From Stenotrophomonas sp. SAU14A_NAIMI4_8 (GTDB taxonomy: Bacteria; Pseudomonadota; Gammaproteobacteria; Xanthomonadales; Xanthomonadaceae): 64,000 nucleotides of DNA. Where the stretch lies: NCBI RefSeq assembly GCF_003086695.1, contig NZ_CP025999.1:4044344-4108343 (forward strand), given 5' to 3'. The notes beneath the pieces are model-generated. The model was not told where the DNA came from. It searched no databases and saw only the letters and a program-made list of their open reading frames with translations. Positions 17,518 through 35,608 of the stretch are shown here, piece after piece; within the stretch, counting starts at the first letter, position 1; each line of letters opens with the position of its first letter. A program made the translations under genes and the position numbers.

Positions 17518-17616
17518 TGTATCGCGCGCAGGGCGGGCCTTCGGCCGGGTCGGCCAACGGCGGAGCCCCTCCGTGGTGGGGGTGTTGGTTGGTCGCGGAA
17601 GGCGGTCTATCGGCTT

Positions 17617-17733
17617 GGCCGGGTGGGCAGGCGGGTCGGGGGACGCCGTAAACCCGTCCTTGGGGGCTTGGCCGCGGCATCCATGCCGCGGACACCCCCG
17701 CCCCGCCTGCCCACCCGGCCCCTGACAGTTTCC
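17617..17733 (+). repeat. 117-bp structured palindromic element, copy 1
   Basis: The outer arms at 17617-17642 and 17695-17720 pair at 25 of 26 positions. The core at 17643-17694 begins ACGCCGTAAA and contains two hairpins, one capped by CATCCATG with stem CCGCGG/CCGCGG. GACAGTTTCC follows the right arm at 17724-17733. Compared with the other two copies, stems vary but remain paired. Function is unknown; it could be a structured RNA or a REP-like mobile unit. Confidence 0.8.
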
Positions 17734-17848
17734 TGCGCGCGGCCGCCACCACGGGAAAGATCAGGAAAATCAAATTCAAAAGCCCATGCTTCGGACGTTC
17801 ATGACGTCCGCCGAGTCGACCAAGGTCGACACCTACCAGAGCAGCGTT

Positions 17849-17887
17849 GGGGTCAGAGCCCGTTGCGAAGCAACGGGATCCGACCCC
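17849..17887. repeat. GGGGTC...GACCCC palindrome
   Basis: GGGGTCAGAGCCCGTTGC and GCAACGGGATCCGACCCC form a long imperfect hairpin. It is one of seven family members in this window. Confidence 0.8.
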
Positions 17888-17907
17888 GTGCCGTTCCGAC
17901 AGTTGCG

Positions 17908-18024
17908 GGAAACTGTCGGGGGCGGGGTGGTGTGGGCTTGCAGGACCGCAGGCGCCATGGATGGCGCCTACGAGCCTCCATGGATGGATTTACGGCGTGT
18001 CCTGCAAGCCCACACCGCCCCGCC
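17908..18024 (-). repeat. 117-bp structured palindromic element, copy 2 (inverted)
   Basis: This copy is on the minus strand. The arms at 18000-18024 and 17921-17945 pair at 24 of 25 positions. The core (17946-17999) reads ACGCCGTAAATCC... on the minus strand, with hairpin stems AGGCGC/GCGCCT around CATCCATG. The GACAGTTTCC tag is at 17908-17917. The total length equals that of copies 1 and 3. Confidence 0.8.
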
Positions 18025-18053
18025 CCGCCCAACCCACAGTAAACCAGCCCCGC

Positions 18054-18102
18054 TTTTGACGTTGACGTTGACGTTAGCGGGTGCAGGGCTGCAAGCCCTG
18101 CC
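18054..18102. repeat. GACGTT hexamers plus GCAGGGCT palindrome
   Basis: TTTTGACGTTGACGTTGACG runs into TTAGCGGGTGCAGGGCTGCA and AGCCCTGCC. The same block lies at 35901-35955. Both copies sit just after the stop of a minus-strand gene (18111 and 35963), so a 3'-end role is possible. Confidence 0.7.
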
Positions 18103-18110
18103 GGTAACCC

Positions 18111-19430
18111 TCACCCCGCCGGGGTGCCGGCGCCGTGCAGATAATCCAGGCTGACCTGCAGCAACGCGCGCAGGCCAACATCCAGCGCCTTCTCATCCAA
18201 CAGGAACTTCGGCGAATGGTTCGCCGGCGCCGTCGCCGGGTCGATGCCCACGCTGGTGGAACCGACGAAGAAGAACATGCCCGGCACTTCCTTGGCGTAC
18301 AGCGAGAAATCCTCCGCGCCCATCTGCAGCGGCGGCTCATAGACGTTGTCCTTGCCCACTACCGCCTGCAGGCTCGGCAGCATCTTCGCGGTCAGCGCCG
18401 GGTCGTTCACCGTGGCCGGGTTGCCCTCGGCCTCGTAGATCTCGGTCACCGCCTTGGCCCCGTGCGCCGCGGCCGTGTGCTCGGCCACGTTGCGCAGATC
18501 GGCGAAGATCTGCTGGCGCATGCCCTCATCGAAGGTGCGGATGGTGCCGACCATCTCCACTTCGTCGGGAATGATGTTGTAGCGGATGCCGCCGTTGATC
18601 GCACCGAAGGTCAGCACCGCCGGCTGCTTGGACAGATTGGTGCGGCGGCTGACGATGGTCTGCGCGGTGCCGACCAGATCGGCGGTGGCCACGATCGGGT
18701 CCACCCCGTTCCACGGTGCCGAACCATGCGTCTGGCGACCGATCACCTTGATCCCGAAGCGATCGGAAGCGGCCATCAACGGGCCGCCACGCACCGCGAT
18801 CTGCCCGGCCTGCACGCTGGAGAATACGTGCAGACCAAACACGGCCTCGGGCTTGAAGTCGGCGAACAGGCCTTCCTTCAGCATCAGCGCGGCACCACCC
18901 TCTTCCGGCGGCGGCGCACCTTCTTCGGACGGCTGGAAGATCAGCATCACCTGGCCTGGCAGGTCCTTCTTCATCGCCACCAAGGCCTCGGCCACGCCCA
19001 GCAGGGTGGCGGTGTGCGCATCATGGCCACAGGCGTGCATCACCCCCACGGTCTGCCCGCGGTATTGCGCCGTAGCCTTGGAGGCGAACGGCAGGCCGGT
19101 CTGTTCGGTTACCGGCAACGCGTCCATGTCCGCGCGCAGGGCGATCTTCGGGCCCGGCTTGCCGCCTTCGATGATCGCCACCACGCCGTGGTGGGCAATG
19201 CCGGTCTTCGGCTTCAGGCCCATCGCGCGCAGGCGCTTGGCCACCTCGGCCGAGGTGCGCGCTTCGCGGTTGGACAGTTCCGGGTGCTGGTGGAAGTCGC
19301 GGCGCCATTCCACCACCTGCGCCTGCAGGCGCTGCGCGGCAGCGGTCACCTCCGGGCGCTCGGCCACGTCGGCATGGGCAAGGGCCGGCACAGCCAGCAG
19401 CAGGGCGGACAGCAGCAGGGAACGGCGCAT
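18111..19430 (-). CDS. exported M20-family amidohydrolase/carboxypeptidase
   Basis: This 439-residue metallohydrolase is of the M20D amidohydrolase type (hippurate hydrolase/IAA-amino-acid hydrolase-like), which cleaves N-acyl amino acids. A signal peptide (MRRSLLLSALLLAVPALAHA, residues 1-20) sends it to the periplasm. The metal-binding motifs HACGHDAHTA (about 135-144) and QPSEEG (about 172-177) are visible, as is RRDFHQHPEL near the N-terminus. The ATG at 19430 is chosen for the signal peptide over an upstream in-frame ATG at 19526. It is divergent from smeI by 186 bases. The natural substrate is not shown by the sequence. Confidence 0.92.
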   Translation of the reverse strand: MRRSLLLSALLLAVPALAHADVAERPEVTAAAQRLQAQVVEWRRDFHQHPELSNREARTSAEVAKRLRAMGLKPKTGIAHHGVVAIIEGGKPGPKIALRADMDALPVTEQTGLPFASKATAQYRGQTVGVMHACGHDAHTATLLGVAEALVAMKKDLPGQVMLIFQPSEEGAPPPEEGGAALMLKEGLFADFKPEAVFGLHVFSSVQAGQIAVRGGPLMAASDRFGIKVIGRQTHGSAPWNGVDPIVATADLVGTAQTIVSRRTNLSKQPAVLTFGAINGGIRYNIIPDEVEMVGTIRTFDEGMRQQIFADLRNVAEHTAAAHGAKAVTEIYEAEGNPATVNDPALTAKMLPSLQAVVGKDNVYEPPLQMGAEDFSLYAKEVPGMFFFVGSTSVGIDPATAPANHSPKFLLDEKALDVGLRALLQVSLDYLHGAGTPAG

Positions 19431-19616
19431 CACGGGCTCCACGGAAGGGGTCTGCACCTGAATGTAGGGCAAGGCTGCCGCTACGGGAACCTCTTTCGCC
19501 ACGCCGGGTCTGAGCGCCCGTCCCATCCGTCATGCAGGAAATGGCATGGGTCACAGGTATGCTTTGCGCATTGCCAACCGGGGCGCCGCCCCGTCCAGCC
19601 TTCTTGGAGTCCTTGA

Positions 19617-20858
19617 ATGTCACGTGTTTGGAAGATCGTGCTGCTGGTCGTGGCAGTGCTGGTGCTGGCAGTCGTCGGCGTGCGGGTACTGGGCGGCGGC
19701 AAGGACAAGGCGGCAGGCCCGGGCGCCGCGGCGCGCCAGGGCGGCGAAGACCCCGATGCCGGCCCGGTGCCGGTTACCGTGGTCGATGCCACCCGCCAGG
19801 ATGTGCCGGTGTATGCCAGCGCCCTGGGTACGGTCACGGCCATGAACACCGTCACGGTCAGCCCGCAGGTGGGTGGCCAGCTGATGAGCCTCAACTTCCG
19901 CGAAGGCCAGGAAGTGAAGCAGGGCGACCTGCTGGCGCAGATCGACCCGCGCAGCGCGCAGGCCAGCTATGACCAGGCCGTGGCCGCCCAGCGCCAGAAC
20001 GAGGCGCTGCTGGCCACCGCCCGTTCCAACTACCAGCGCTCCAACGCGCCGGAGTATCGCCAGTTCGTCGCCAAGACCGATCTGGATACACAACGAAACC
20101 AGGTGTCACAGTACGAAAGCGCAGTGGCCGCCAACGAGGCCAGCGCGCGCGCCGCGCAGGTGCAGCTGCAGTACACCCGCATCACCGCGCCGATCTCCGG
20201 CATTGCCGGCATCCGTGCGGTCGACGCTGGCAACGTGGTCAATGCCGGTACCGCGCTGGTCACCCTCACCCAGATCCACCCGATCCATGTGCTGTTCAAC
20301 CTGCCCGAACGCCAGCTGGGCGACGTGCGCCAGGCGCAGGCCGCAGGCAAGGTGCCGGTCGCTGCGCTGGACCGCGCCGATTCGCACGTGCTGTCCGGTG
20401 ACGGCTCGCTGGACGTGGTGGACAACCTGATCAGCGCCGACAGCGGCACCTTCAAGGCCCGCGCGATCTTCGAAAACACCGACAACGGCCTGTGGCCGGG
20501 CCAGTTCGTGAACGTGCGCATGCAGCTGCGCACCATTGCCGGTGGCGTGGTCATTCCCACCCAGGCCGTGCTGCGCGGGCCCGATGGCGAGTACGTCTAT
20601 CTTGTGCAGGGCGACAACACGGTCAAGATGCAGACCGTGCGCAGTGGCGTGGAAGTGGGCGACAGCCACGTGCAGATCACCGAAGGCCTGAAGGGTGGCG
20701 AGCGGGTGGTCAGCGAAGGCCAGTTCCGCCTGAAGCCGGGCAGCAAGGTGACCGCGCTGAAGCCGGGCGAAACCCCCGCTGCGCCCACCGAGGCCGAACT
20801 GAAGGCCGCCGAACAGAAGAGCGGCGGCCGCGGCCGTCCCGGTGGTGGCCCGCGCTGA
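19617..20858 (+). CDS. smeI: RND efflux periplasmic adaptor (SmeI/MdtA-like)
   Basis: This 413-residue membrane-fusion protein links inner-membrane RND pumps to an outer-membrane channel. It has an N-terminal membrane anchor (residues 4-25), a barrel-sandwich hybrid from about 55 (VTVSPQVGGQLMSLNFREGQEVKQGD), an alpha-hairpin from about 110-175, a beta-barrel, and a Gly/Arg-rich tail. It is the first gene of adaptor-pump-pump, the MdtABC arrangement. In S. maltophilia that arrangement is SmeIJK, which is the basis of the symbol. The ATG at 19617 follows TTGGAG. No TolC-type gene is adjacent, so the outer-membrane partner is encoded elsewhere. Confidence 0.93.
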   Translation: MSRVWKIVLLVVAVLVLAVVGVRVLGGGKDKAAGPGAAARQGGEDPDAGPVPVTVVDATRQDVPVYASALGTVTAMNTVTVSPQVGGQLMSLNFREGQEVKQGDLLAQIDPRSAQASYDQAVAAQRQNEALLATARSNYQRSNAPEYRQFVAKTDLDTQRNQVSQYESAVAANEASARAAQVQLQYTRITAPISGIAGIRAVDAGNVVNAGTALVTLTQIHPIHVLFNLPERQLGDVRQAQAAGKVPVAALDRADSHVLSGDGSLDVVDNLISADSGTFKARAIFENTDNGLWPGQFVNVRMQLRTIAGGVVIPTQAVLRGPDGEYVYLVQGDNTVKMQTVRSGVEVGDSHVQITEGLKGGERVVSEGQFRLKPGSKVTALKPGETPAAPTEAELKAAEQKSGGRGRPGGGPR

Positions 20859-20932
20859 GCGCAGGCCACCCTTTCCTTTCGCGCCGGCCCTGCTGCCGGC
20901 GCAGCCATTGAAGCGACAGCAAGGATCAGTCC

Positions 20933-23900
20933 GTGGGCTTTTCGACGATCTTCATCCGCCGTCCCATCGCTACCTCGCTGTTGATGGCGGGCCTGTTGCT
21001 GCTGGGCATCCTGGGTTACCGCAAGCTGCCGGTGTCGGCGCTGCCGGAAATCGATGCGCCCAGCCTGGTGGTCACCACCCAGTACCCCGGTGCCAACGCC
21101 ACCACCATGGCGTCGCTGGTCACCACCCCGCTGGAGCGCCAGTTCGGGCAGATTTCCGGGCTGGAACTGATGACCTCCGATTCGTCGGCCGGGTTGTCCA
21201 CGATCATCCTGCAGTTCTCGATGGACCGCGACATCGATATCGCCGCGCAGGACGTGCAGGCGGCGATCCGCCAGGCCACCCTGCCCTCGTCGCTGCCCTA
21301 CCAGCCGGTCTACAACCGGGTGAACCCGGCCGACGCGGCCATCGTCACCCTGAAGCTGACCTCTGACACGCGGCCGCTGCGCGAGGTCAACAACTACGCC
21401 GATTCGATCCTGGCCCAGCGCCTGTCGCAGGTGCAGGGCGTGGGTCTGGTATCGATTGCCGGCAACGTGCGCCCGGCCGTGCGCATCCAGGTCAATCCGG
21501 CGCAGCTGTCGAACATGGGCCTGACCATGGAAGAGCTGCGCAGCGCGCTCACCCAGGCCAACGTCAACGCGCCCAAGGGCTCGTTGAACGGCAAGACCCA
21601 GTCCTACAGCATCGGTACCAACGACCAGCTGGCCAGTGCCGCCGAGTACCGCGACACCATCATCAGCTACAAGAACGGCCGCCCGGTGCGGCTGTCCGAC
21701 GTGGCCCAGGTGGTGGACGGCGTGGAGAACGACCAGCTGGCCGCCTGGGCCGATGGCAAGCCGGCGGTGCTGCTGGAAGTGCGCCGCCAGCCCGGTGCCA
21801 ACATCGTGCAGACCGTCGAACGCATCCGCGCCATCCTGCCGCAGCTGCAGGGTGTGCTGCCGGCCGACGTGCACCTGGAAGTCTTCAACGACCGCACCGA
21901 AACGATCCGTGCGTCGGTGCATGAAGTGCAGTTCACCCTGATCCTGACCATCGGCCTGGTGGTGGCGGTCATCTTCGTGTTCCTGCGCCGGCTGTGGGCC
22001 ACCATCATTCCCTCGGTGGCGGTACCGCTGTCGCTGGCCGGCACGTTCGCGGTGATGGCCTTCACCGGCATGTCGCTGGACAACCTTTCGCTGATGGCGC
22101 TGGTGGTGGCGACCGGCTTCGTGGTGGACGATGCGATCGTGATGATCGAGAACATCGTGCGCTACATCGAGCAGGGCAAGAGTGGCCGCGAAGCGGCCGA
22201 GATCGGCGCGCGCCAGATCGGCTTCACCGTGCTGTCGCTGACCGTCTCGCTGGTGGCCGTGTTCCTGCCGCTGCTGCTGATGCCCGGCGTCACCGGCCGC
22301 CTGTTCCACGAATTCGCCTGGGTGCTCAGCATCGCCGTGGTGCTGTCGATGCTGATCTCGCTGACGCTGACGCCGATGATGTGCGCCTACCTGCTCAAGC
22401 CCGACGCGCTGCCCGAGGGCGAAGACGCGCATGAGCGCGCAGCGGCCGCCGGCAAGCAGAACCTGTGGACGCGCACCGTGGGCCTGTACGAACGCAGCCT
22501 GGACTGGGTGCTGGACCACCAGCGCGCCACCCTGGTCGTGGCCGCCGCCGCGCTGGTGCTGACCGTGCTGCTGTACGTGCTGATTCCCAAGGGCCTGCTG
22601 CCCGAACAGGACACCGGCCTGATCACCGGCGTGGTGCAGGCCGACCAGAACATCGCCTTCCCGCAGATGGAGCAGCGCACCAAGCAGGTGGCCGAGGCCC
22701 TGCGCCAGGACCCGGACGTGACCGGCGTGTCGGCCTTCATCGGTGCCGGCAGCATGAACCCCACGCTCAACCAGGGCCAGCTGTCGATCGTGCTGAAGGA
22801 GCGCGGCCAGCGCGATGGCCTGGATGAGATCCTGCCGCGCCTGCAGAAGGCGGTGGCCGGCATTCCCGGCGTGGCGCTGTACCTGAAACCGGTGCAGGAC
22901 GTGACCCTGGATACGCGCGTGGCCGCCACCGAGTACCAGTACTCGCTGTCGGACGTCGATTCGGCCACCGTGGCCACCCAGGCCACGCGCCTGACCGAGG
23001 CGCTGCGCCAGCGCCCGGAGCTGGCGGACGTGGACAACAACCTGTCCAACCAGGGCCGTGCGCTGGAACTGAACATCGACCGCGACAAGGCCAGCGTGCT
23101 GGGCGTGCCGATGCAGACCATCGATGACACGCTCTACGATGCGTTCGGCCAGCGCCAGATCTCCACCATCTTCACCGAGCTCAACCAGTACCGCGTGGTG
23201 CTGGAAGTGGCGCCGGAATTCCGCACCAGCACCGCGCTGATGGAACAGCTGGCCGTGGCCTCCAACGGCGCCGGCGCGCTGACCGGCACCAACGCCACCA
23301 GTTTCGGCCAGGTCACCTCGTCCAACTCGTCCACCGCCACCGGCATCGGTGCGCAGAACACCGGCATTACCGTGGGCGCGGGCAACATCATTCCGCTGTC
23401 GGCGCTGGCCGAAGGCAAGGTGACCAGCGCGCCGCTGGTGGTCAGCCACCAGCAGCAGCTGCCGGCGGTGACCGTCTCCTTCAACGTGGCGCCGGGCTAC
23501 TCGCTGTCCGATGCGGTCAAGGCCATCGAAGAGACCAAGGCCAGCCTGGACATGCCGGCCCACCTGCATGCCGAGTTCATCGGCAAGGCCGCCGAGTTCA
23601 CCGGCAGCCAGACCGACGTGGTGTGGCTGCTGCTGGCTTCGCTGGTGGTGATCTACATCGTGCTGGGCGTGCTGTACGAAAGCTACATCCACCCCATCAC
23701 CATCATTTCCACCCTGCCGCCGGCCGGCGTGGGCGCGCTGCTCGCGCTGATGGTGTGCGGCCTGAGCCTGTCGGTGGATGGCATCGTCGGCATCGTGCTG
23801 CTGATCGGCATCGTGAAGAAGAACGGCATCATGATGGTGGACTTCGCCATCGAAGCCCGCCGTGCCGGCGCCAACGCCCACGAAGCGATCCGCCGCGCCT

Positions 23901-24166
23901 GCCTGCTGCGCTTCCGCCCGATCATGATGACCACCGCCGCGGCGATGCTGGGCGCGCTGCCGCTGGCACTGGGCACCGGCATCGGCTCGGAACTGCGCCG
24001 CCCGCTGGGCATCGCCATCGTCGGCGGCCTGCTGCTGTCGCAGCTGGTAACGCTGTACACCACGCCGGTGATCTACCTGTACATGGAACGGTTCTCGGAA
24101 TGGCTGGCCCGCCGCCGCGAGCAGCGCGCGTTGCGCGACGGTTCGCTGCAGGAGCCGCAGGCATGA
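20933..24166 (+). CDS. smeJ: RND multidrug efflux pump 1 (SmeJ/MdtB-like)
   Basis: This 1077-residue inner-membrane proton antiporter expels drugs through the adaptor SmeI. It has the RND pattern of twelve helices and two large periplasmic loops. The proton-relay aspartate pair is in ATGFVVDDAIVMIENIVRY (about 400). The start is GTG at 20933 after AAGGA, 74 bases after smeI. An internal serine/threonine-rich insert near residues 785-810 (GTNATSFGQVTSSNSSTATG) is visible in a periplasmic part. MdtB and MdtC form a mixed trimer, so SmeJ probably works with SmeK. Confidence 0.95.
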   Translation: MGFSTIFIRRPIATSLLMAGLLLLGILGYRKLPVSALPEIDAPSLVVTTQYPGANATTMASLVTTPLERQFGQISGLELMTSDSSAGLSTIILQFSMDRDIDIAAQDVQAAIRQATLPSSLPYQPVYNRVNPADAAIVTLKLTSDTRPLREVNNYADSILAQRLSQVQGVGLVSIAGNVRPAVRIQVNPAQLSNMGLTMEELRSALTQANVNAPKGSLNGKTQSYSIGTNDQLASAAEYRDTIISYKNGRPVRLSDVAQVVDGVENDQLAAWADGKPAVLLEVRRQPGANIVQTVERIRAILPQLQGVLPADVHLEVFNDRTETIRASVHEVQFTLILTIGLVVAVIFVFLRRLWATIIPSVAVPLSLAGTFAVMAFTGMSLDNLSLMALVVATGFVVDDAIVMIENIVRYIEQGKSGREAAEIGARQIGFTVLSLTVSLVAVFLPLLLMPGVTGRLFHEFAWVLSIAVVLSMLISLTLTPMMCAYLLKPDALPEGEDAHERAAAAGKQNLWTRTVGLYERSLDWVLDHQRATLVVAAAALVLTVLLYVLIPKGLLPEQDTGLITGVVQADQNIAFPQMEQRTKQVAEALRQDPDVTGVSAFIGAGSMNPTLNQGQLSIVLKERGQRDGLDEILPRLQKAVAGIPGVALYLKPVQDVTLDTRVAATEYQYSLSDVDSATVATQATRLTEALRQRPELADVDNNLSNQGRALELNIDRDKASVLGVPMQTIDDTLYDAFGQRQISTIFTELNQYRVVLEVAPEFRTSTALMEQLAVASNGAGALTGTNATSFGQVTSSNSSTATGIGAQNTGITVGAGNIIPLSALAEGKVTSAPLVVSHQQQLPAVTVSFNVAPGYSLSDAVKAIEETKASLDMPAHLHAEFIGKAAEFTGSQTDVVWLLLASLVVIYIVLGVLYESYIHPITIISTLPPAGVGALLALMVCGLSLSVDGIVGIVLLIGIVKKNGIMMVDFAIEARRAGANAHEAIRRACLLRFRPIMMTTAAAMLGALPLALGTGIGSELRRPLGIAIVGGLLLSQLVTLYTTPVIYLYMERFSEWLARRREQRALRDGSLQEPQA

Positions 24167-24197
24167 TCCAGGCCCCGCACCTGCGGGGGGCCGCACG

Positions 24198-27320: not shown

Positions 27321-27324
27321 CCCC

Positions 27325-27361
27325 GGGGTCAGATCCCTCGCTCTGCGAGGGCTCTGACCCC
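27325..27361. repeat. GGGGTC...GACCCC palindrome after smeK
   Basis: GGGGTCAGATCCCTCGC pairs with GCGAGGGCTCTGACCCC around TCT. Directly behind smeK, it could terminate or stabilise the transcript; no U-run follows. Confidence 0.8.
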
Positions 27362-27390
27362 GTGCGGCGGTCACGGTTTGACGCGCTGTA

Positions 27391-27412
27391 ACGAAAAGAG
27401 AACAATTCGCAA
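27391..27412 (-). promoter_or_regulatory. possible Fur box before siderophore receptor
   Basis: On the minus strand this reads TTGCGAATTGTTCTCTTTTC then GT, similar to gamma-proteobacterial Fur sites of the GCGAATGATTCTCATT type. It lies about 130 bases before the receptor start, a suitable place for iron control. Confidence 0.35.
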
Positions 27413-27541
27413 CCAGCCATGGTCCTGCGCCCCTGCGGCGCCCCGCTCCCGGTTCCCGGTCAGCCTGCGTGATCCCAGCCACTGCCCCTTCCCCCAACCA
27501 TGGGTGGATGGCCCGTGGCCGTCCGCCGAGGAACCTGATCG

Positions 27542-29599
27542 ATGCCTTCGTTCCGCACCCCGCGCGTGGCCCTGCTGGCCGCCGCCCTGACCGCTGCCTG
27601 CGTGGCCCATGCAGAAGCCCCGGCCGACACCCGCAGCGCCACCGACCTGGACGCCATCAAGGTGGTCGGCGAACGCACCCACACCGAAGCCGGTGCGCTG
27701 GGCGACCGTGCCCTGCGTGACACCCCGTTCGCCATCACCGCCGTCGGCCGCGAACAGCTGGAGCAGCGCCAGGTCGTCTCACTGGGTGAAGCCTTCCTGT
27801 TCGATCCCTCGGTCACCACCCAGGTCAGCGCCTACGCCAGTGGCTGGAGCTCGCCCATCCGCAACCGCGGCATCGATCTGAACTACGACAGCTACCGCGT
27901 GAACGGCCTGCAGGTGTCCTCGTGGGGCACCGAATGGCCGCTGGAAGTGATGGAACAGGTCGACCTGCTGAAGGGCCCCGGTGGCTTCCTGTACGGCTTC
28001 GGCGCACCCGGCGGCATCGTCAACTACATCACCAAGAAGCCGACCGACACCCCGACGTTCTCCGCGCAGCTGGGCTGGCGCGAACAGGGCATCGTCAGCG
28101 GCGGCGTCGATGCCGGCGGGCGCTTCGGCAACGAAGAGATGTTCGGCTACCGCTTCAACGCGTACCAGGAGAAGGGCGAAACCTTCAACGGCGGCCATGT
28201 CGACCGCAAGGTCGGCGCACTGTCGCTGGACGCGCGCTTGAGCGATGCGCTCACCTGGACCTTCGACGGCGTGTTCCAGTCGCGCGACCTGAGCGAAGAA
28301 TCGCCGCAGTACTATTTCATCGGCCTGACCTCGCTGCCGCGGCCGATTGCCGGCGACGTCGACAACAGCGTGCCGGGCACCTACTACGACACCCGTTCCA
28401 GCCTGCTGTCGACCGCGTTGAACTGGCAGATCAACAGCGACTGGAAGGCCAGCGTGAGCTACGGCGTCACCACCTCGTGGAACGACGTCAACAAGATCTT
28501 CGCCTACATCGACGATCCGAACGGCGACTACAACGTGAACGTGTACGAGCTGGGCGGCAAGAGCGAATGGAAGCTCGCGCAGGCGCTGGTGCAGGGCAAC
28601 TTCCGCACCGGTCCGCTGCAGCACCAGCTGGTGGCCGGCATCAGCCACCAGACCGGGCTGGGCTGGGACCGCCCCTACGAGTGGAACACCATCGGCCGCG
28701 CCAACCTGTACCAGCGTTCGGCGATCCGCCACGACGCGGTGGGTTCGCGGGTGATGACCCGCGGCGATGAAACCGTGCAGCAGGCGGTGTTCGCCAGCGA
28801 TACCGTCGACTTCGGCGGCGGCTGGTCGGTGCTGGCCGGCTGGCGCTACAACGACTTCGAGACCAAGGGCCGTTACCACACCTACCCGGTCACTCCGACC
28901 TATGCAGTCATGTTCAAGCCCAGCGAGGCAGTGACCCTGTACGCCAGCTACATCGAATCGCTGGAAGCCGGCAGCCGCGTGGGCAACACCTACATCAACG
29001 CCGGCGATGTGCTGGACCCGACCATCAGCAAGCAGTATGAAATCGGCGCCAAGGTGGAAGCCTCGCGCTGGAATGCGAACGTGGCCGCGTTCCGGCTGGA
29101 ACGTGGCGCCAACATCGACCAGCAGACCGACACCGGCCTGCGCCTGGTGCAGGATGGAATCACCCTGTACGAAGGCGTGGAAGCCAGCGCCGACCTGCAC
29201 CTGACCGACGCGCTGACCGTGGGTGGCGGCGTGACCTGGCTGGACCCGACCTACGACAAGCTGTCGCCGGACAGCGCCGCGCAGGAAGGCAACCGCACCG
29301 TCGGTGCCGCCCGCTGGAGCGGCGTGCTGCATGCCAGCTACCAGCTGCCGTGGGTGGATGGCCTGGAAACCTACGCCGCCGTGCGCTACTACGGCGATGT
29401 CTGGTACGACGCCGACAACACCCTGAAGCTGCCTGACTACACCCTGGTCAATGCCGGCGTGGGCTATCGCCTGATGGCCAGCGGCCATCCGGTCACCCTG
29501 CGCGCCAGCGTGGAAAACCTGGGCAACCGCAAGTACTGGTCCAACGCTGGCATCGGCCTGCCGCGCACCTTCGCCGTGAGCGTGCGCTGGGAGATGTAA
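27542..29599 (+). CDS. TonB-dependent siderophore receptor
   Basis: This 685-residue outer-membrane receptor is of the ferric-siderophore (FhuA/FoxA-like) type. A signal peptide covers about residues 1-24 (ending VAHA). The plug starts DLDAIKVVGERT and includes DTPFAITAVGREQLEQRQ, RNRGIDLNYDSYRVNGLQ and VEMEQVDLLKGPGGFLYG-like sequence (EVMEQVDLLKGPGGFLYGFG) typical of siderophore receptors. The barrel ends FAVSVRWEM. The ATG at 27542 follows GAGGAA. Iron control through Fur is plausible given the candidate site upstream. The cognate siderophore cannot be read from sequence. Confidence 0.93.
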   Translation: MPSFRTPRVALLAAALTAACVAHAEAPADTRSATDLDAIKVVGERTHTEAGALGDRALRDTPFAITAVGREQLEQRQVVSLGEAFLFDPSVTTQVSAYASGWSSPIRNRGIDLNYDSYRVNGLQVSSWGTEWPLEVMEQVDLLKGPGGFLYGFGAPGGIVNYITKKPTDTPTFSAQLGWREQGIVSGGVDAGGRFGNEEMFGYRFNAYQEKGETFNGGHVDRKVGALSLDARLSDALTWTFDGVFQSRDLSEESPQYYFIGLTSLPRPIAGDVDNSVPGTYYDTRSSLLSTALNWQINSDWKASVSYGVTTSWNDVNKIFAYIDDPNGDYNVNVYELGGKSEWKLAQALVQGNFRTGPLQHQLVAGISHQTGLGWDRPYEWNTIGRANLYQRSAIRHDAVGSRVMTRGDETVQQAVFASDTVDFGGGWSVLAGWRYNDFETKGRYHTYPVTPTYAVMFKPSEAVTLYASYIESLEAGSRVGNTYINAGDVLDPTISKQYEIGAKVEASRWNANVAAFRLERGANIDQQTDTGLRLVQDGITLYEGVEASADLHLTDALTVGGGVTWLDPTYDKLSPDSAAQEGNRTVGAARWSGVLHASYQLPWVDGLETYAAVRYYGDVWYDADNTLKLPDYTLVNAGVGYRLMASGHPVTLRASVENLGNRKYWSNAGIGLPRTFAVSVRWEM

Positions 29600-29612
29600 T
29601 GCGGTTTCGGTG

Positions 29613-29635
29613 GGTGCGGACCGTTGGTCCGCACC
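29613..29635. terminator. GGTGCGGACC hairpin after receptor gene
   Basis: This is a perfect 10-base stem with loop GTT, 13 bases after the receptor stop and before the FUSC gene. A near copy lies at 50654-50673. There is no U-run, so it may be a REP-type 3'-end hairpin rather than a classic terminator. Confidence 0.5.
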
Positions 29636-29695
29636 TCGAACACCCTACACACGCGCGCACCGCCATAATGGGGGCACTCCGCCCCCCGAGCCTGC

Positions 29696-31876
29696 ATGTC
29701 CGCGCCCCATTCCCGCCTCAGTCGCCTGTGGGCCCATGAAAAGGCCAGCTACGGCCTGCGCGTCTTCATTGCCCTGACCACCGCGCTGGGCGTGTGCTGG
29801 CACATGGACGCACTGCCGGCCCTGCCCGGTGTGTTCCTGGGCATCATCGCCAGCGCCATCGCCGAAACCGATGACAACTGGTGGGGCCGCACCAAGGCGG
29901 TGCTGCTGTCGCTGCTGTGCTTCTGCATTGCCGCCGCGTCGGTCATCTGGCTGTTCCCGTGGCCGTGGCTGTTCATCGCCGCGCTGGCGCTGTCCACCTT
30001 CGGCCTGACCCTGCTGGGCGCGCTGGGCGAACGCTACGCCTCCATCGCCCAGGCCACGGTCACCCTGGCCATCTACACCATGATCGGGCTGGAGCAGCAC
30101 GGCGGCGCCGGCGATCTGCCACGCGCCCTGCATGCGGTCAGCCACCTGCTGGCCGGTGCGGTCTGGTATGGCCTGTTGTCCATTGTCTGGACCGCCCTGT
30201 TCGCCAACCGCCCGGTACGCGAACGCGTAGCCCGCCTGTACCAGGAACTGGGCCGCTACCTGCAGTTGAAGGCCGCGCTGTTCGAGCCGGTGCGTGAAGC
30301 GGACCTGCACCGTCGCCAGCTGGACCTGGCCGAGCAGAACCGCAGGGTGGTGGGCGCACTCAATGAAGCCAAGGCCGCGATCATGGCGCGCTTCGGCCGC
30401 TCCGGCCGCCCCGGGGTGAATTCCGGCTTGTACCTGCGCCTGTACTACATGGCCCAGGATTTCCATGAGCGTGCCAGCTCGTCGCACTACCCCTACGGCG
30501 CCCTGGTGGATGCGTTCTTCCACAGTGACGTGCTGTACCGCTGCCAGCGCCTGCTGGACCTGCAGGGCCAGGCCTGCGCACGGCTGGGCGAGGCGATCCG
30601 CCTGCGCCGGCCGTTCGTGTACGGGGAAAGCAACCAGCAGGCCGGGCGTGACCTGGCCGATGCCCTGGCCTACCTGCGCGACCAGCAGCGCCCGCAGTGG
30701 CAGCGCCTGCTGGGTTCGCTGGACCTGCTGGTGCACAACCTGCGCAGCATCGAACGCCGCCTGCTGGACGCCGAACGCTCCGAAGCCAGCCTGGACAACG
30801 TCGATACCCGCCTGCGCGACAGCAACCCCCATACCCTGCGCGAAATGGGCGTGCGCATCCGCCAGCAGCTCACCCCCGGTTCGGTGCTGTTCCGCCACGG
30901 CCTGCGCATGGCGCTGGCGCTGATTGCCGGCTTCCTGGCCATCCGCCTGTTCAATGCACAGAACGGCTCGTGGGTGCTGCTGACCATCGTGTTCGTGTGC
31001 CGGCCCAACTTCGGCGCCACCCGCCAGCGCCTGGCCCAGCGCATCGTCGGCACCCTGGCCGGCCTGGTGCTGACCTGGGCACTACTGCAGCTGTTCCCGC
31101 AGCTGCACGTGCAGTTGTTGATCGCCCTGCTGTCGGCCCTGCTGTTCTTCTTCACCCGCACCGACCGCTACCTGGTGGCCTCGGCGGCGATCACGGTGAT
31201 GGCGCTGACCTGCTTCAACCTGATCGGCGATGGCTTCGTGCTGATCGTGCCGCGCATGGTCGATACCCTGCTGGGTTGCGCCATCGCCGCCGCCGCGGCC
31301 TTCCTGATCCTGCCCGACTGGCAGGGGCGGCAGCTGCACAAGGTACTGGCGCGGGTGCTGGACACCGCCGCGCGCTATCTGGAATCGGTGCTGGGCCAGT
31401 ACCGCAGCGGCATGCGCGACGACTTGGCCTACCGCATTGCCCGCCGCGACATGCACAACGCCGATGCAGCGCTGTCCACGGCCTTGTCGAACATGCTGCG
31501 CGAACCCGGCCATGTGCGCCGCAACCTGGATGCCGGCTTCCGCTTCCTGGCACTGTCCAACACCCTGCTGGGCCACCTTTCCGCACTGGGCGCGCACCGC
31601 GACCAGGTGGACAGCTTCGCCGCCGACCCGCTGGCCCTGGCCGCCGGCGAACGCGTGCGCAAGGCGCTGGAACAGCTGGGCAGTGCGCTGGGCGCACGGC
31701 AGCCGGTCAGCGAAGACGACAACGACGCCGACCGCGCCGTGGCCGCCGAACTGGAACAGACCGACGACAGCATGGCGCCGAAGCTGCAGCTGATCCGCAC
31801 CCAGATGGCACTGGTGCTGCGCATGCTGCCGAAAATGCGCGCGGCGGCCAACGAAGCGGTGCGTGGCCTGACCTGA
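29696..31876 (+). CDS. FUSC-family inner-membrane transporter (YccS-like)
   Basis: This 726-residue protein has the two-cluster membrane layout of the fusaric-acid-resistance/YccS family: helices at about residues 20-150, a large cytoplasmic region, and a second helix group at about 395-520 (including MALALIAGFLAIRLF and GSWVLLTIVFVCRPNFGATRQR). The family is linked to efflux of aromatic acids and similar compounds. The N-terminal YccS/YhfK module and C-terminal FUSC signature are both present. No membrane-fusion partner lies next to it. The substrate is unknown. Confidence 0.88.
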   Translation: MSAPHSRLSRLWAHEKASYGLRVFIALTTALGVCWHMDALPALPGVFLGIIASAIAETDDNWWGRTKAVLLSLLCFCIAAASVIWLFPWPWLFIAALALSTFGLTLLGALGERYASIAQATVTLAIYTMIGLEQHGGAGDLPRALHAVSHLLAGAVWYGLLSIVWTALFANRPVRERVARLYQELGRYLQLKAALFEPVREADLHRRQLDLAEQNRRVVGALNEAKAAIMARFGRSGRPGVNSGLYLRLYYMAQDFHERASSSHYPYGALVDAFFHSDVLYRCQRLLDLQGQACARLGEAIRLRRPFVYGESNQQAGRDLADALAYLRDQQRPQWQRLLGSLDLLVHNLRSIERRLLDAERSEASLDNVDTRLRDSNPHTLREMGVRIRQQLTPGSVLFRHGLRMALALIAGFLAIRLFNAQNGSWVLLTIVFVCRPNFGATRQRLAQRIVGTLAGLVLTWALLQLFPQLHVQLLIALLSALLFFFTRTDRYLVASAAITVMALTCFNLIGDGFVLIVPRMVDTLLGCAIAAAAAFLILPDWQGRQLHKVLARVLDTAARYLESVLGQYRSGMRDDLAYRIARRDMHNADAALSTALSNMLREPGHVRRNLDAGFRFLALSNTLLGHLSALGAHRDQVDSFAADPLALAAGERVRKALEQLGSALGARQPVSEDDNDADRAVAAELEQTDDSMAPKLQLIRTQMALVLRMLPKMRAAANEAVRGLT

Positions 31877-31936
31877 TTCCGCCTGCAGGGGCGGAGGTGG
31901 TGCGGTGCCGTTGGCTGTGACGGTGCCGATGGCGGT

Positions 31937-31978
31937 GGGGATGGGGATGGGGATGGGGATGGGGATGGGGATGGGGAT
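31937..31978 (+). repeat. GGGGAT hexanucleotide repeat, seven copies
   Basis: Seven perfect GGGGAT units run in tandem, with degenerate units just upstream. They lie between the FUSC gene and a REP pair. Such a tract is prone to slippage. Confidence 0.92.
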
Positions 31979-31982
31979 GGCG

Positions 31983-32040
31983 GTAGAGTCGAGCTTGCTC
32001 GACTGCTCTGCCAACAGCAGTCGAGCAAGCTCGACTCTAC
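31983..32040. repeat. inverted pair of GTAG REPs
   Basis: Units at 31983-32006 (plus) and 32017-32040 (minus) of the GTAGAGTCGAGCTTGCTCGA type face each other. Confidence 0.9.
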
Positions 32041-32043
32041 GCA

Positions 32044-32218
32044 GCGCAGCATCGCGGCATCATTCGTCCCGACATCGCGCAGCATCGCGGCATCGTTCGG
32101 CCCGGGCATCGCGCATCATCGCGGCATCGTTCGACCCGGGCATCGCGCAGCATCACAGCATCGTTCGGTCCGCCATCGCGGCAGCATCGCGGCATCGTCC
32201 GGCCCGGTGCCAGGCATC
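32044..32218. repeat. 33/34-bp tandem repeat, about five copies
   Basis: Units begin GCGCAGCATCGCGGCATC and start at 32044, 32077, 32111, 32145 and 32178; the last is longer and eroded. Units differ by a few bases. The array ends about 90 bases before the MFS-acyltransferase start, so it may affect that promoter. Confidence 0.85.
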
Positions 32219-32309
32219 GTTCGGATGGAGCGCCACCACTGCGTGTCCCGCCGCCCCGCACCCGCCGTGCAGGCAGGAATGCTAGGCTGCGGCGGTCCAA
32301 GGAGGTTCC

Positions 32310-34199
32310 ATGTCCGGCCACAACCAGTTCGCCCTGCTGCGCCAGCGCCGCTTCCTGCCGTTCTTCATCGTGCAGGCGCTCGGTGCCTTCAACGACAACG
32401 TCTACCGGCAAGCGATCATCGGCCTGCTGTTCTACCTGGGCGTATCGGAAGAGCAGCGTTCGCTCTACACCACGCTGGCGCCGGCCATCTTCATCCTGCC
32501 CTACTTCCTGTTTTCAGCCCTTGCCGGCCAGATCGCCGACAAACTGGAAAAATCGCGCCTGATCGTGATCACCACCACCATGGAGATCGTGATCATGTCG
32601 ATGGCGGCGGTCGGCTTCCTGACCGAAAGCCTGCCGTTCCTGCTGGTGGCACTGTTCTGCACCGGCATGCAGTCCACCCTGTTCGGCCCGGTGAAGTACT
32701 CGGTGCTGCCGGCCGTGCTGAAGCCCGAAGAGCTGACCGGCGGCAATGGCCTGGTGGAGATGGGCACCTCCATCTCGATCCTGTCGGGCATGATCCTGGG
32801 CGGCGCGGTGTTCCTGCTGGCCGGCAGCCAGGGTCCGATCGTGGCGGCCACGGCGGTCATCGCGCTGGCGGTATGCGGCAACATCGCCGCACGCATGATC
32901 CCCAAGGTCGATGCCGGCGACCCGGACCTGAAGATCAACTGGAACCCGTTGCCGGAATCGTTGGTCGTGCTGCGCATGGCACGGCAGCAGAAGGCGGTGC
33001 GCAACGCGATCCTGGGCGTGTCCTGGTTCTGGTTCGTCGGCACCGTGCTGACCTCGCAGCTGCCCAACTACGCACTGGCCAACCTGGGCGGCGAACCGAA
33101 GCTGTACCTGTTCGCGCTGGCCCTGTTCTCGGTCGGCACCGGCGTCGGCTCGCTGCTGTGCGAAAAGCTGTCCGCGCGCACCGTTGAAATCGGCCTGGTG
33201 CCGCTGGGCGCCTTCGGCATGACCGCCTTCCTGCTCGATCTGTACTTCGCCCGCCCGGGCGAGGCCACGGTGCACGGCATGGGCATCCTGGCCTTCCTGC
33301 AGCAGGCCGGCAGCGTGCGCATCGTCGTCGATCTTGTCGGTATCGGCCTGTTCACCGGCGTGTTCGTGGTGCCGCTGTTCGCGCTCATCCAGAGCCGCAC
33401 CCCGAAGGCGCAGATGTCGCGCGTGTTCGCCGCACTGAACATCCAGAATTCCGGTTTCATCGTCGGCGCCGCCCTGATTTCACTGGCCGCGCGCGAATGG
33501 CTGCACTGGACCATCCCGCAGTTGTTCCTGGCACTGGCCATCGCCAATGCCGTGGTGGCGATCTACATCTTCACCATCGTCCCCGAATTCCTGATGCGCT
33601 TCCTGAGCTGGGTGATGGTGCGCACGCTGTACCGGCTGCGCCCGCATGGCATTGAAGCCAACGTGCCCGACGAAGGCGCCGCGCTGCTGGTCTGCAACCA
33701 TGTCAGCTACATGGATGCGCTGATCCTGTCGGCGACGATTCCGCGCCCGGTGCGCTTCGTCATGTACTACCGCATCTTCAACATCCCGGTGATGCGTTGG
33801 ATCTTCCGCACCGCCAAGGCGATCCCGATTGCCGGCGCACGCGAAGACCCGGCCTTGATGCAGCGCGCGTTCGACGAAGTGGATGCCGCGTTGGCCGAGG
33901 GCGAACTGGTCTGCATCTTCCCCGAAGGCGCACTGACCCGCGATGGCGAGATGGCGCCGTTCAAATCGGGCGTGGAGAAGATCCTGGAGCGCAGGCCGGT
34001 GCCGGTGGTGCCCATGGCCCTGCGCGGCATGTGGTCGAGCATGTGGAGCCGGCGCGATACCCGCCTGGGCCGCATGCGCGTTCCGCGCCGCTTCCGCGCC
34101 ACCGTGGAAGTGGTCGCCGCACCCGCCGTGGACGGCCAGCGTACCGATGCGGCCGCGCTGGAAACGCAGGTGCGAAGCCTGCGCGGCGACAACGCCTGA
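32310..34199 (+). CDS. MFS transporter-PlsC acyltransferase fusion
   Basis: This 629-residue protein joins an LplT-like MFS lysophospholipid transporter (about 1-410, starting RRFLPFFIVQALGAFNDNVYRQ) to a PlsC-type glycerolipid acyltransferase. The acyltransferase motif HX4D is H464-VSYM-D469, and FPEG is at 537-540. In E. coli LplT and Aas do this as separate proteins, and Aas also carries an acyl-ACP synthetase domain. That domain is absent here, so the acyl donor must come from elsewhere. The role is probably uptake and re-acylation of lysophospholipids at the inner membrane. The ATG follows AAGGAGG. The gene stands alone. Confidence 0.88.
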   Translation: MSGHNQFALLRQRRFLPFFIVQALGAFNDNVYRQAIIGLLFYLGVSEEQRSLYTTLAPAIFILPYFLFSALAGQIADKLEKSRLIVITTTMEIVIMSMAAVGFLTESLPFLLVALFCTGMQSTLFGPVKYSVLPAVLKPEELTGGNGLVEMGTSISILSGMILGGAVFLLAGSQGPIVAATAVIALAVCGNIAARMIPKVDAGDPDLKINWNPLPESLVVLRMARQQKAVRNAILGVSWFWFVGTVLTSQLPNYALANLGGEPKLYLFALALFSVGTGVGSLLCEKLSARTVEIGLVPLGAFGMTAFLLDLYFARPGEATVHGMGILAFLQQAGSVRIVVDLVGIGLFTGVFVVPLFALIQSRTPKAQMSRVFAALNIQNSGFIVGAALISLAAREWLHWTIPQLFLALAIANAVVAIYIFTIVPEFLMRFLSWVMVRTLYRLRPHGIEANVPDEGAALLVCNHVSYMDALILSATIPRPVRFVMYYRIFNIPVMRWIFRTAKAIPIAGAREDPALMQRAFDEVDAALAEGELVCIFPEGALTRDGEMAPFKSGVEKILERRPVPVVPMALRGMWSSMWSRRDTRLGRMRVPRRFRATVEVVAAPAVDGQRTDAAALETQVRSLRGDNA

Positions 34200-34374
34200 C
34201 GCAGCTGACACGGGGCGCAGCGTGCCCCGTTACGTCGACTGGACACCCGCCGAGCCCCCCTTGGCGGGCATGTAAACGCATACATGAAGCCCGCGTTGCG
34301 GTAGATTACGCACCCACAGGGGGGAGGTTCGGCCTGTCCGCGACAGACCGACCGCCAAGGAATGGAGTCTTGCT

Positions 34375-34662
34375 TTGAATCAACCGCCACCTATCGAGCG
34401 TCCGGTGTACATCCCCAACCATCTGGTCTGGGCGATCGTGACCACGCTGTTCTGCTGCCTGCCGCTGGGGGTGGTGTCGATTGTCTATGCGTCCCAGGTG
34501 GACGGCCGCCGCGCGGCCGGTGATCTGCCGGGGGCCTTCAGTGCGTCGCGCAAGGCGGGCTGGTGGGCGGTGGCTTCGGCCGTCGCACTGCCGGTCCTGT
34601 TGCTGTTGTGGTTCGGGCTGTTCGGCGGCTTGGCCGCGCTGGGCGCTCTTTCCGACCTTTGA
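34375..34662 (+). CDS. CD225/dispanin-family membrane protein 1
   Basis: This 95-residue protein has the CD225 pattern: NHLVWAIVTTLFCCLPLGVVSIVYASQV (about 15-42) forms the first membrane-associated helix with its CC pair, followed by an acidic/basic loop and a second helix (about 65-90). The start is TTG at 34375 after AAGGAATGGAG; no in-frame ATG fits. It is followed 32 bases later by a paralogue. The family includes eukaryotic IFITM proteins, but bacterial roles are undefined. Confidence 0.85.
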   Translation: MNQPPPIERPVYIPNHLVWAIVTTLFCCLPLGVVSIVYASQVDGRRAAGDLPGAFSASRKAGWWAVASAVALPVLLLLWFGLFGGLAALGALSDL

Positions 34663-34694
34663 TTCACACCACCACCCATCGAGGAGCTTGAACC

Positions 34695-34967
34695 ATGAAC
34701 ACCACCACCCCGCAGGTCCCCAACAATCTGGTCTGGGCCATCCTGTCGACCCTGTTCTGCTGCCTGCCGGCCGGCATCGTGTCGATCGTCTACGCCGCCC
34801 AGGTCAACGGCAAGCTGGCCGCTGGCGACATCGCCGGTGCCCGTGAGTCGTCGGAAAAGGCCAAGAAGTGGGCCATCTGGTCGGCCATCGCCGCTGTCGT
34901 GGTCGGTATCCTGTACGGCATCCTGATCGCCGTGGTCGGCGTGATGGGCGGCGGCAGCAGCTACTGA
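34695..34967 (+). CDS. CD225/dispanin-family membrane protein 2
   Basis: This 90-residue paralogue of the preceding protein has NNLVWAILSTLFCCLPAGIVSIVYAAQVNGK at the N-terminus and a second helix near 55-80. A GAGGAGCTTGAACC precedes the ATG. The pair arose by tandem duplication, followed by divergence in the C-terminal half. It is probably co-transcribed with the first. The role at the membrane is unknown. Confidence 0.88.
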   Translation: MNTTTPQVPNNLVWAILSTLFCCLPAGIVSIVYAAQVNGKLAAGDIAGARESSEKAKKWAIWSAIAAVVVGILYGILIAVVGVMGGGSSY

Positions 34968-34977
34968 TGCACCCTGC

Positions 34978-35002
34978 GGGATCCGGCTCCGCGCCGGATC
35001 CC
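34978..35002. terminator. hairpin between CD225 pair and DUF2752 gene
   Basis: GGGATCCGGC (34978-34987) pairs with GCCGGATCCC (34993-35002) around TCCGC. Only a weak T tract follows, so it may attenuate rather than stop transcription. Confidence 0.5.
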
Positions 35003-35010
35003 GTTGTCGC

Positions 35011-35436
35011 ATGTCCGTCCTTCCCGCACGTTCCCGACTGGCCCGCTGGGCCCCACTGCTGGCCGCTTCCGGCCTGGCCGCGGGTGCCGCCGTGGTGCTG
35101 CGCCACGTCAATCCCTATGTCTCGGGCAATCCACTGCCCGGCTGCCCGCTGTATGCACTGACCGGGCTGTACTGCCCCGGCTGCGGCAGCACGCGCTGCC
35201 TGTACTCGCTGGTCCACTTCGACCTGCCCGGCGCGATGGCGATGAATCCGCTGCTGGTCATCAGCCTGCCGTTCCTGTTCCTGATGCTGCTCAACAGCGC
35301 CGGCATCCGTCCACGCGTGCTGGACCCGCTGATGCGGGTGCTGGCCAACCCGATGTTCTGGCTATGGCTGCTGCCGGGCTACGCGCTGCTGCGCAACCTG
35401 CCCTGGGCCCCCTTCACCGCCCTGGCCCCGGTCTAG
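35011..35436 (+). CDS. DUF2752 membrane protein
   Basis: This 141-residue protein carries the DUF2752 signature GLYCPGCGSTRCLYSLVHFD (about residues 51-70), with cysteines spaced as a possible metal or redox site. Three hydrophobic helices lie at about 13-30, 80-96 and 110-130. DUF2752 genes are often found beside CD225 genes, as here. Function is unknown. Confidence 0.85.
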   Translation: MSVLPARSRLARWAPLLAASGLAAGAAVVLRHVNPYVSGNPLPGCPLYALTGLYCPGCGSTRCLYSLVHFDLPGAMAMNPLLVISLPFLFLMLLNSAGIRPRVLDPLMRVLANPMFWLWLLPGYALLRNLPWAPFTALAPV

Positions 35437-35491
35437 GGTTCAAGCCAACGGCGCAGCCCCTCGTGGTGGGGCGTTTGGCGATCATGAGGTT

Positions 35492-35608
35492 GGCCGGATG
35501 CGATGGGCTTGCGGGGGACGCCGTAAACCCATCCATGGGGGCTTAGCCGCGCCATCCATGGCGCGGATACCCCCGCAAGCCCATCGCACCCGGCCACGGA
35601 CAGTTTCC
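35492..35608 (+). repeat. 117-bp structured palindromic element, copy 3
   Basis: The arms at 35492-35517 and 35570-35595 pair at 25 of 26 positions. The 52-base core begins ACGCCGTAAACCCATCCATG and includes stems CGCGC/GCGCG around CATCCATG. GACAGTTTCC lies at 35599-35608. See copies at 17617 and 17908. Confidence 0.8.

Follow-up and report, generated by a model that had tools for sequence, protein, structure and literature searches.

A paired, hairpin-forming interspersed repeat of Gammaproteobacteria at two sites of a Stenotrophomonas genome, with preferential maintenance of the minus-strand fold

We analysed a stretch of 64,000 nt from Stenotrophomonas sp. SAU14A_NAIMI4_8 (contig NZ_CP025999.1, positions 4,044,344 to 4,108,343; hereafter the window, on which element and part coordinates are given), which holds three branched hairpin elements of an interspersed repeat family. 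Each element is called an arm in the following. Two of the arms form an inverted pair, and the third is the left arm of a second pair, of whose right arm half an outer stem is left. The original prediction, made from the sequence alone, had described the three elements, and its coordinates, lengths of 117 nt and strands are correct; that their outer strands pair at all but one position could likewise be read directly from the sequence. Bit scores in the following lines refer to the covariance model R1, which is introduced below and whose seed includes all three copies.

17617..17733, plus strand: arm 1, left arm of the first pair (124.4 bits)
17617-17642 with 17695-17720, plus strand: outer stem of arm 1
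17656-17661 and 17679-17684, plus strand: hexaloops of hairpin 1 and hairpin 2 of arm 1, with the tag at 17724-17733
17908..18024, minus strand: arm 2, right arm of the first pair, tag inward (129.8 bits)
17980-17985 and 17957-17962, minus strand: hexaloops of hairpin 1 and hairpin 2 of arm 2, with the tag at 17908-17917
35492..35608, plus strand: arm 3, left arm of the second pair (124.9 bits)
35492-35517 with 35570-35595, plus strand: outer stem of arm 3
35531-35536 and 35554-35559, plus strand: hexaloops of arm 3, with the tag at 35599-35608

The single mismatch between the 26-nt strands of the outer stem is T.C in 17617-17733, A.C in 35492-35608 and C.A in 17908-18024. Folded as DNA, the three elements reached z = -8.3, -9.6 and -10.0, with 0 of 200 shuffled sequences equally stable in each case. 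The core pattern, with at most two mismatches allowed, occurs three times in the window against 0.03 expected from shuffles. The GACAGTTTCC tag alone is unremarkable there (four matches at no more than one mismatch, 1.9 expected), and it is variable or missing in many other copies. An exact search of the whole genome for ACGCCGTRAA returned 54 places, namely 37 complete arms, 11 arms interrupted by inserts and 6 chance matches outside the family, and from the 37 complete arms, aligned with MAFFT (alignment A2), we built the covariance model R1. R1 gave 128 matches in this genome at E <= 0.01, of which 124 were kept after removal of 4 opposite-strand mirror matches, so that the three copies on which the original prediction was based turned out to belong to a large family.

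Arms are about 105–117 nt long and fold into a three-way junction, in which a freely variable outer stem of 20–26 bp closes a conserved core composed of hairpin 1, with a 5-nt bulge, and hairpin 2. In A2, 96.3% of 1503 paired cells hold standard pairs compared to 77.9% in shuffles, double changes occur in 29 of 41 pairs compared to 19.5, and the covariation score is 0.476 compared to 0.156, with 0 of 500 shuffles reaching any of the five measures. The structure used here was derived by RNAalifold from A2 itself, and we therefore added a model-free pairing test. For 120 arms from distant genomes (distant arms), the 5' strand scored a median of 21 against its own 3' strand and 5 against the 3' strand of another arm; for 97 arms of this genome and the genus, the corresponding medians were 23 and 11. 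Symmetric one-base deletions were additionally seen, affecting the two strands of one stem alike. The GGTC...TCAC subtype of arms (e.g. L006 1252-1366) carries a fixed C.T mismatch in hairpin 2, which corresponds to a tandem G.A/A.G on the minus strand. Such a tandem recalls a kink-turn.

Mismatches that persist in the outer stem allowed us to ask which of the two strands is kept folded. For this, 5' and 3' strands were aligned with a mismatch-neutral rule, and isolated mismatches were counted once per sequence context and position. The distant-arm set was reduced from 173 rows to 154 unique sequences of usable length and, after removal of 34 without recognisable loops and 1 with a short stem, to 119 arms, in which A.C outnumbers G.T by 37 to 9, C.T outnumbers G.A by 25 to 2 and C.C outnumbers G.G by 15 to 1. 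Pooled, this amounts to 77 vs 12 (P about 1e-12; T.T with 4 and A.A with 2 cases are uninformative). The first count had given 73 vs 23, and a set from named genomes that lay outside this first count (60 arms of 93 rows) gave 38 vs 8 (P = 9e-6); all P values of this test are too small, because related arms can share an event. Read on the minus strand, the favoured mismatches are G.U, G.A and G.G, which are the better tolerated ones. The bias was observed for arms in tandem plus-sense (16:4), tandem minus-sense (12:0), convergent (12:0) and divergent (13:3) positions, stem integrity is the same for sense and antisense arms (P = 0.40), and replication direction is balanced in this genome by the inverted pairing. 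Since the bias is present in all gene contexts, it is the fold of one strand that is maintained, and the minus-strand hairpin is the one kept stable, regardless of the direction of nearby genes. Its independence of sense and antisense position, together with the equal integrity of both, points to DNA, and the skew of G.A and G.G, which is at least that of G.U, fits single-stranded DNA (ssDNA) at least as well as RNA, going by general knowledge of mismatch stabilities. The alternative left by the original prediction, RNA or ssDNA, is thereby narrowed to the minus strand, in either form.

Read on the minus strand, both hairpins take the form C-ANGGAN-G. Exactly two NTCCNTG loops are found in 180 of 198 unique arms (kept from 238), with the TCCs 20 nt apart in 173 of these 180. 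Hairpin 2 of the distant arms fits the motif in 106 of 120 cases, with both N positions variable; arms from the named genomes were fetched with a pattern that fixes hairpin 1, and only their hairpin 2 is independent for this comparison. PMC4005645 describes the high-affinity site of CsrA/RsmA as an ANGGAX hexaloop placed immediately on a stem, with variable N and X, and the arms display this arrangement at the sequence level. The available part of PMC7652899 gives RUACARGGAUGU as the consensus selected by CsrA in systematic evolution of ligands by exponential enrichment, with bridging by one dimer at 10–63 nt and an optimum above 18 nt. The weight of the motif is limited, because it was recognised only after the loops had been seen.

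Arms are strictly arranged in this genome. Among 46 neighbouring pairs less than 1.5 kb apart, 44 are in '+-' orientation with tags inward, 35 of them with gaps of 108–226 nt; the exceptions are one '++' and one '-+', the latter between two tandem copies of a composite. At G000:C1:2041133-2042549 (L109), an entire composite is duplicated in tandem at a spacing of 948 nt. We inspected the surroundings of 35 clusters, using gene calls from a codon-score script, and the pairs flanked by called genes at either end are placed convergently in 7, in tandem in 10 and divergently in 3 cases; one convergent pair, L025, encloses a gene. Pair orientation is thus not set by the direction of the neighbouring genes, and an origin of the orientation as a by-product of terminators was rejected, as it is the same in convergent, tandem and divergent positions. 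Partners also avoid matching stems: near-identical outer stems were found in 0 of 34 pairs examined (of the 44) compared to 5.1 expected (P = 0.002, with a cut-off for near-identity that was fixed on first inspection of the data), and partners of the same named subtype in 2 compared to 5.6–5.7 expected (P about 0.04). Six wide pairs of this genome have gaps of 566–950 nt and no transposase, of which L025 encloses an aldolase-like gene, as read from its translation, and L101-L105 enclose no called gene. The pair of L198, a distant one, encloses a gene for a T2SSE-family ATPase. In L200 (G223, 152-1034), an inverted pair encloses genes that are presumably CcdA/CcdB-like and AbrB-like, in a genome with only two matched arms. 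From the six wide pairs and the cargo of L198 and L200, we rejected the idea of an autonomous copy with its own enzyme. A BIME-like cluster of five arms alternating + - + - + with gaps of 27–36 nt was observed in L071 (G093, 1063-1762).

Comparison of orthologous sites allowed us to follow single arms across genomes. At the queF-M20 site, for which 19 genomes of the genus were compared (L121-L139), R1 finds arms in 8, all with a queF at least 93% identical, one of them ended by a contig edge; the other 11, with queF at no more than 85%, show no arms, one being cut off beside queF and some having M20 elsewhere. Between the eight arm-carrying sites, arms differ as whole blocks with outer flanks still alignable, and L121, L123 and L125 additionally show a paired compensatory C/T-G/A change together with its mismatched intermediate. 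As arms are replaced as blocks, many of the paired changes arrive together; genuine point changes on both sides of a pair are seen as well. The original prediction had put forward selection on a folded single strand, which is supported by covariation and arm-specific stems, but the inference from three copies was too simple. At the second site of the window, 13 genomes were compared. Five relatives have a pair, a further one (L152) has a pair with an insert in one arm, and another (L154) has two fused arms; four genomes have no arm, one stretch stops at a contig edge, and the genome of the window has one arm and half a stem. The element at 35492 is hence not a solitary one, an inverted pair standing at its site in five relatives. 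In 269 kb taken from five relatives, R1 matches at E <= 1e-6 lie at the same two sites only, and both sites are therefore stable over this divergence. The strain comparison proposed in the original prediction gave no clean empty site, and in more distant relatives without the pair, the intergenic sequence aligns too poorly to place an insertion point. In L154 (G016), the two arms are joined at the hairpin-2 loop, with the interior gone and a 35-nt hairpin at the junction, an arrangement that resembles the product of cutting and rejoining at the loops.

The two pairs of the window are accompanied by other repeats; those seen around arms comprise two types of outer flank repeat, runs of hexanucleotides, REP hairpins and palindromes of the GGGGTCAG kind. 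These further features of the window are:

17551..17576, plus strand: type-2 outer flank repeat (GCCAACGGCGGAGCCCC type), left of arm 1
17734..17907: interior of the first pair, 174 nt, made up of various other repeats in mosaic form, among them a REP-like hairpin and the 17849-17887 palindrome
17849..17887: 39-nt palindrome starting GGGGTCAG; palindromes of this kind also border the Y1 transposase gene at L051
18079..18101: type-1 outer flank palindrome (GCAGGGCTGCAAGCCCTGC), right of arm 2, past a GTTGAC repeat
35444..35471, plus strand: type-2 outer flank repeat, left of arm 3
35857..35882, minus strand: right-arm remnant of the second pair, half an outer stem with the core lost (complete arm in the five relatives)
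35932..35954: type-1 outer flank palindrome, to the right of what is left of the partner arm

The dispersed unit exceeds the arm itself, since BLAST matches among relatives often begin at the type-2 flank repeat and run for 200–280 nt (window 35444-35720 and many other loci). Several arms are themselves interrupted. Inside the hairpin-1 loop of three arms (L024 836-1040, L037 from 1088, L043 1424-1652) we found ends of the form TGAAGTGACCCCC ... GGGGGTCACTTCA, which we take to be those of an IS3-like insertion sequence (IS); TGG stands at both ends of the insert in L024 and L043, which are short remnants, and the insert of L037 extends further. A loop-targeting IS is likely behind these inserts. 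Hairpin-rich inserts occupy fixed loop positions in arms of L009, L018, L022, L028, L030, L036, L045, L103, L109 and L125, with sizes of about 72 nt in hairpin 1 (L045, L103) and 78 nt in hairpin 2 (L009, L109). L125 carries both kinds, and the orthologous arms in L126 and L127 carry none.

The family is spread across the class in a patchy manner. With the genome of the window included in the genus, family and class counts and copy numbers of the wide searches read as lower bounds, R1 matches 23 of 31 genomes of the genus (E <= 1e-6), 17 of 79 genomes of a family sample (E <= 1e-5) and 43 of 274 genomes of a Gammaproteobacteria sample, covering 38 of 221 genera. In a phylum sample, 15 of 299 genomes match, every one of them in Gammaproteobacteria, and two genomes of one and the same genus were found with at least 46 arms and with none. 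A degenerate core pattern retrieved at least 120 stretches, with Methylotuvimicrobium buryatense, Methylomonas, Marinobacter, Thioalkalivibrio and Thiohalophilus among the matches listed; the cultivable strain M. buryatense 5G is one such carrier. The outer stem of distant arms is unrelated, and the core loops, a GCC/GGC helix and the 5-nt bulge are mostly retained. The core of one arm from a genome of the same taxonomic family (L072), used as a single query, had no match in 72,556 plasmid records.

Regarding candidate enzymes, Y1 transposases were detected in 48 of 55 arm-positive and in 14 of 23 chosen arm-negative genomes. Several arm-positive genomes without Y1 or CsrA are incomplete assemblies; G355, at 99% completeness and with at least 13 arms, has no detected Y1 gene. 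The genome of the window has GGGGTCAG palindromes rather than arms on the flanks of its Y1 gene at L051, and its Y1 genes at L052 and L053 are flanked by REPs identical or near-identical to Stenotrophomonas REPs listed in the accessible part of PMC2817692. The ORFs (open reading frames) near distant arms belong mostly to metabolic and housekeeping families, as judged from the 25 Pfam families shown, with one phage-integrase-type domain (a XerD-like ORF by our own reading).

The family was compared with several known systems. Rfam 15 left the three elements unmatched at gathering scores, reporting only two tRNAs in the window, and at relaxed thresholds six loci of this genome with further copies gave sub-threshold matches only, mostly to microRNA-type hairpins. 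Among papers holding any of six core strings, no title or abstract opening concerned a bacterial interspersed repeat (subscription papers lay outside this search), and the consulted parts of PMC6006769 and PMC9788540 do not describe the family. The family is thus apparently uncatalogued in the sources searched, in line with the earlier statement that no named family fits. MITE-type repeats (miniature inverted-repeat transposable elements) such as ERIC, NEMIS/Correia and RUP are about 100 nt long, and the arms resemble them in being of similar length, palindromic, intergenic and non-coding. In contrast to these, the arms have no conserved terminal repeat, their outer stem being variable and their interior conserved, and no target duplication was found. 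Integron attC sites end in RYYYAAC ... GTTRRRY, and such ends were found on the plus strand of 0 of 249 arms. The arms also share GGA hexaloops on minus-strand stems, two per arm, with decoy RNAs of the CsrB/RsmZ type, but unlike these they are not a single-locus small RNA gene, and their orientation to genes is not selected for the GGA strand.

As far as the available parts of the sources go, REPINs and BIMEs consist of two REP palindromes in inverted arrangement and are linked to RAYT Y1 transposases (PMC2817692), and REPs of the GTAG and CGTC super-families are palindromes of 20–40 bp, one end of which bears an unpaired GTAG or CGTC tag (PMC3733652, whose background section also names ERIC, NEMIS and RUP as repeats). 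Like REPINs and BIMEs, the arms are interspersed, intergenic and hairpin-forming, stand in inverted pairs with diverse stems, form an alternating array in at least one genome and have IS insertions in their hairpins. They differ from REPs and REPINs in their length of about 105–117 nt, compared to 20–40 nt, and in their three-way junction, two conserved loops and bulge, and from REPIN/RAYT systems in that no RAYT gene flanked by arms was found among the five Y1 genes of this genome and some positive genomes have no detected Y1. In 12-nt stretches at the feet of 249 arms (from 296 rows), GTRG occurs 66 times at the 5' foot on the plus strand and 59 times at the 3' foot on the minus strand, compared to 58 and 50 in shuffles, and CGTC occurs 5 and 7 times, compared to 8.0 and 7.5. 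With a branched hairpin of 117 nt and foot tags at about shuffle level, membership in the REPs was rejected. According to the part of PMC3733652 consulted, the terminal inverted repeat (TIR) families of TIRYT transposases in S. maltophilia are moderately abundant and many share GGGGWSAS, and one of them is self-complementary and often closely spaced. The arms are likewise moderately abundant repeats of the same genus, but they do not flank the Y1 gene of L051, where the GGGGTCAG palindromes do, and identity of the arms with one of the two S. maltophilia TIR families is unlikely.

We tentatively favour, at slightly less than even confidence, a model in which the arms form a REP/REPIN-like interspersed repeat of giant size, whose minus strand, with GGA in both loops, acts as a hairpin of single-stranded DNA. 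The family would have been spread by an enzyme provided in trans that processes this folded strand specifically, as proposed for REPINs and RAYTs, and would now be largely fixed in place. Selection and exchange between copies would keep the arms folded, and partners with matching stems may be lost because such a pair would form a long unstable palindrome.

Several observations weigh against this model. Neither transposition nor a fresh insertion was seen, the five related genomes carrying arms only at the same two sites, and neither of the two compared sites yielded a clean empty counterpart with a target duplication. The five Y1 (PF01797) genes of this genome have no arm within 1.5 kb, and no Y1 family is among the 25 shown of 106 Pfam families for 68 of 73 ORFs near distant arms. 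Y1 was furthermore undetected in 7 of the 55 arm-positive genomes, four of which have at least 12 arms. RAYT as the mobiliser was rejected from the position of the five Y1 genes and from these 7 genomes, even though Y1 genes are commoner in the arm-positive than in the arm-negative set. Pair orientation is less strict in other genomes, where neighbouring pairs less than 1 kb apart are '+-' in 10 of 15 cases, '-+' in 2 and on the same strand in 3, and the mean stem similarity of partners is no lower than random (P = 0.12). The strand asymmetry is weaker in arms of this genome and the genus (97 of 123 rows; 35 vs 15, P = 0.007), with C.T and G.A unskewed at 6 vs 5, and it could stem from a mutational process tied to the hairpin. 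Finally, the loops fit an RNA–protein motif unusually well, a fit that the ssDNA model leaves as coincidence.

This last point leads to a rather unlikely alternative, in which the minus strand would act as RNA and each arm would constitute a two-site CsrA/RsmA element, serving as a dispersed decoy or as leader or trailer, with one dimer potentially bridging both GGAs. Both hairpins present an ANGGAX hexaloop closed by C-G at a GGA spacing of 20 nt, which would suit one CsrA dimer, the strand test selects the same strand as the GGA loops, and CsrA was detected in 51 of the 55 arm-positive genomes. It was however undetected in arm-positive G312 (98% complete) and present in 21 of 23 arm-negative genomes, so that occurrence of Y1 and CsrA settles neither reading. 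Nor does gene context favour RNA: out of 148 distant arms, 35 overlap called genes and 24 more have no usable flanking gene, leaving 89, and in tandem contexts of other genomes the GGA strand is sense in 21 cases compared to 34 for the plus strand (P = 0.10). Near gene ends, cruder gene calls gave 11 vs 23 for the GGA strand as sense (24 of 69 arms dropped for overlap with long ORFs). Antisense arms are moreover as intact as sense arms, the G.A and G.G asymmetries of distant arms are as strong as that of G.U, and the conserved 5-nt bulge of hairpin 1 is left unexplained by binding of CsrA. RNA acting in cis was rejected, being unsupported by orientation to genes or by sense and antisense integrity. 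An extended version is unlikely too, and slightly more so: the hairpins might be dispersed across the class, with at least 100 copies in some genomes, and might jointly act as a chromosome-encoded CsrA/RsmA sink or addressing system, spread and kept as a mobile structured element.

Two further explanations were weighed. The arms could be ordinary intergenic structure, a transcription barrier or a stabiliser of mRNA ends as proposed for many REPs, which we consider improbable. The 89 distant arms with a usable gene call are intergenic, as are arms of this genome, often no more than 150 nt from a gene end or start, and both sites of the window are retained across related species; but the orientation of pairs is the same whether they are placed convergently, in tandem or divergently, a mRNA role predicts neither this fixed orientation nor the minus-strand bias, and a U-tract is hardly present, 11 of 249 arms having T5 behind the 3' foot and 1 having A5 ahead of the 5' foot, so that the arms do not qualify as intrinsic terminators. 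More doubtful still is the notion of selfish leftovers, in which a once-mobile MITE-like repeat would be functionless now and its stems matched only by palindrome correction through template switching and by gene conversion. Exchange of arms as blocks at the orthologous site, the symmetric one-base deletions in both stem strands, and inserts and one fusion that fall in hairpin loops agree with it, but conservation of loops and bulge in 29 arms, drawn from 26 genomes throughout the class, does not, and a minus-strand bias is unexpected under symmetric correction.

The repeat is present in about one in six sampled Gammaproteobacteria, with more than 100 copies in some genomes, and departs from the rules known for REPs in size, tag and flanking RAYT, yet retains their paired layout. 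If the match of its loops to the CsrA/RsmA motif is due to chance, the enzyme that reads these hairpins is still to be found; if the match is true, it would link interspersed repeats to a global regulator. With its free stem sequence, its held fold, loops and bulge and its strand bias, the family constitutes a natural data set on the recognition of a folded single strand.

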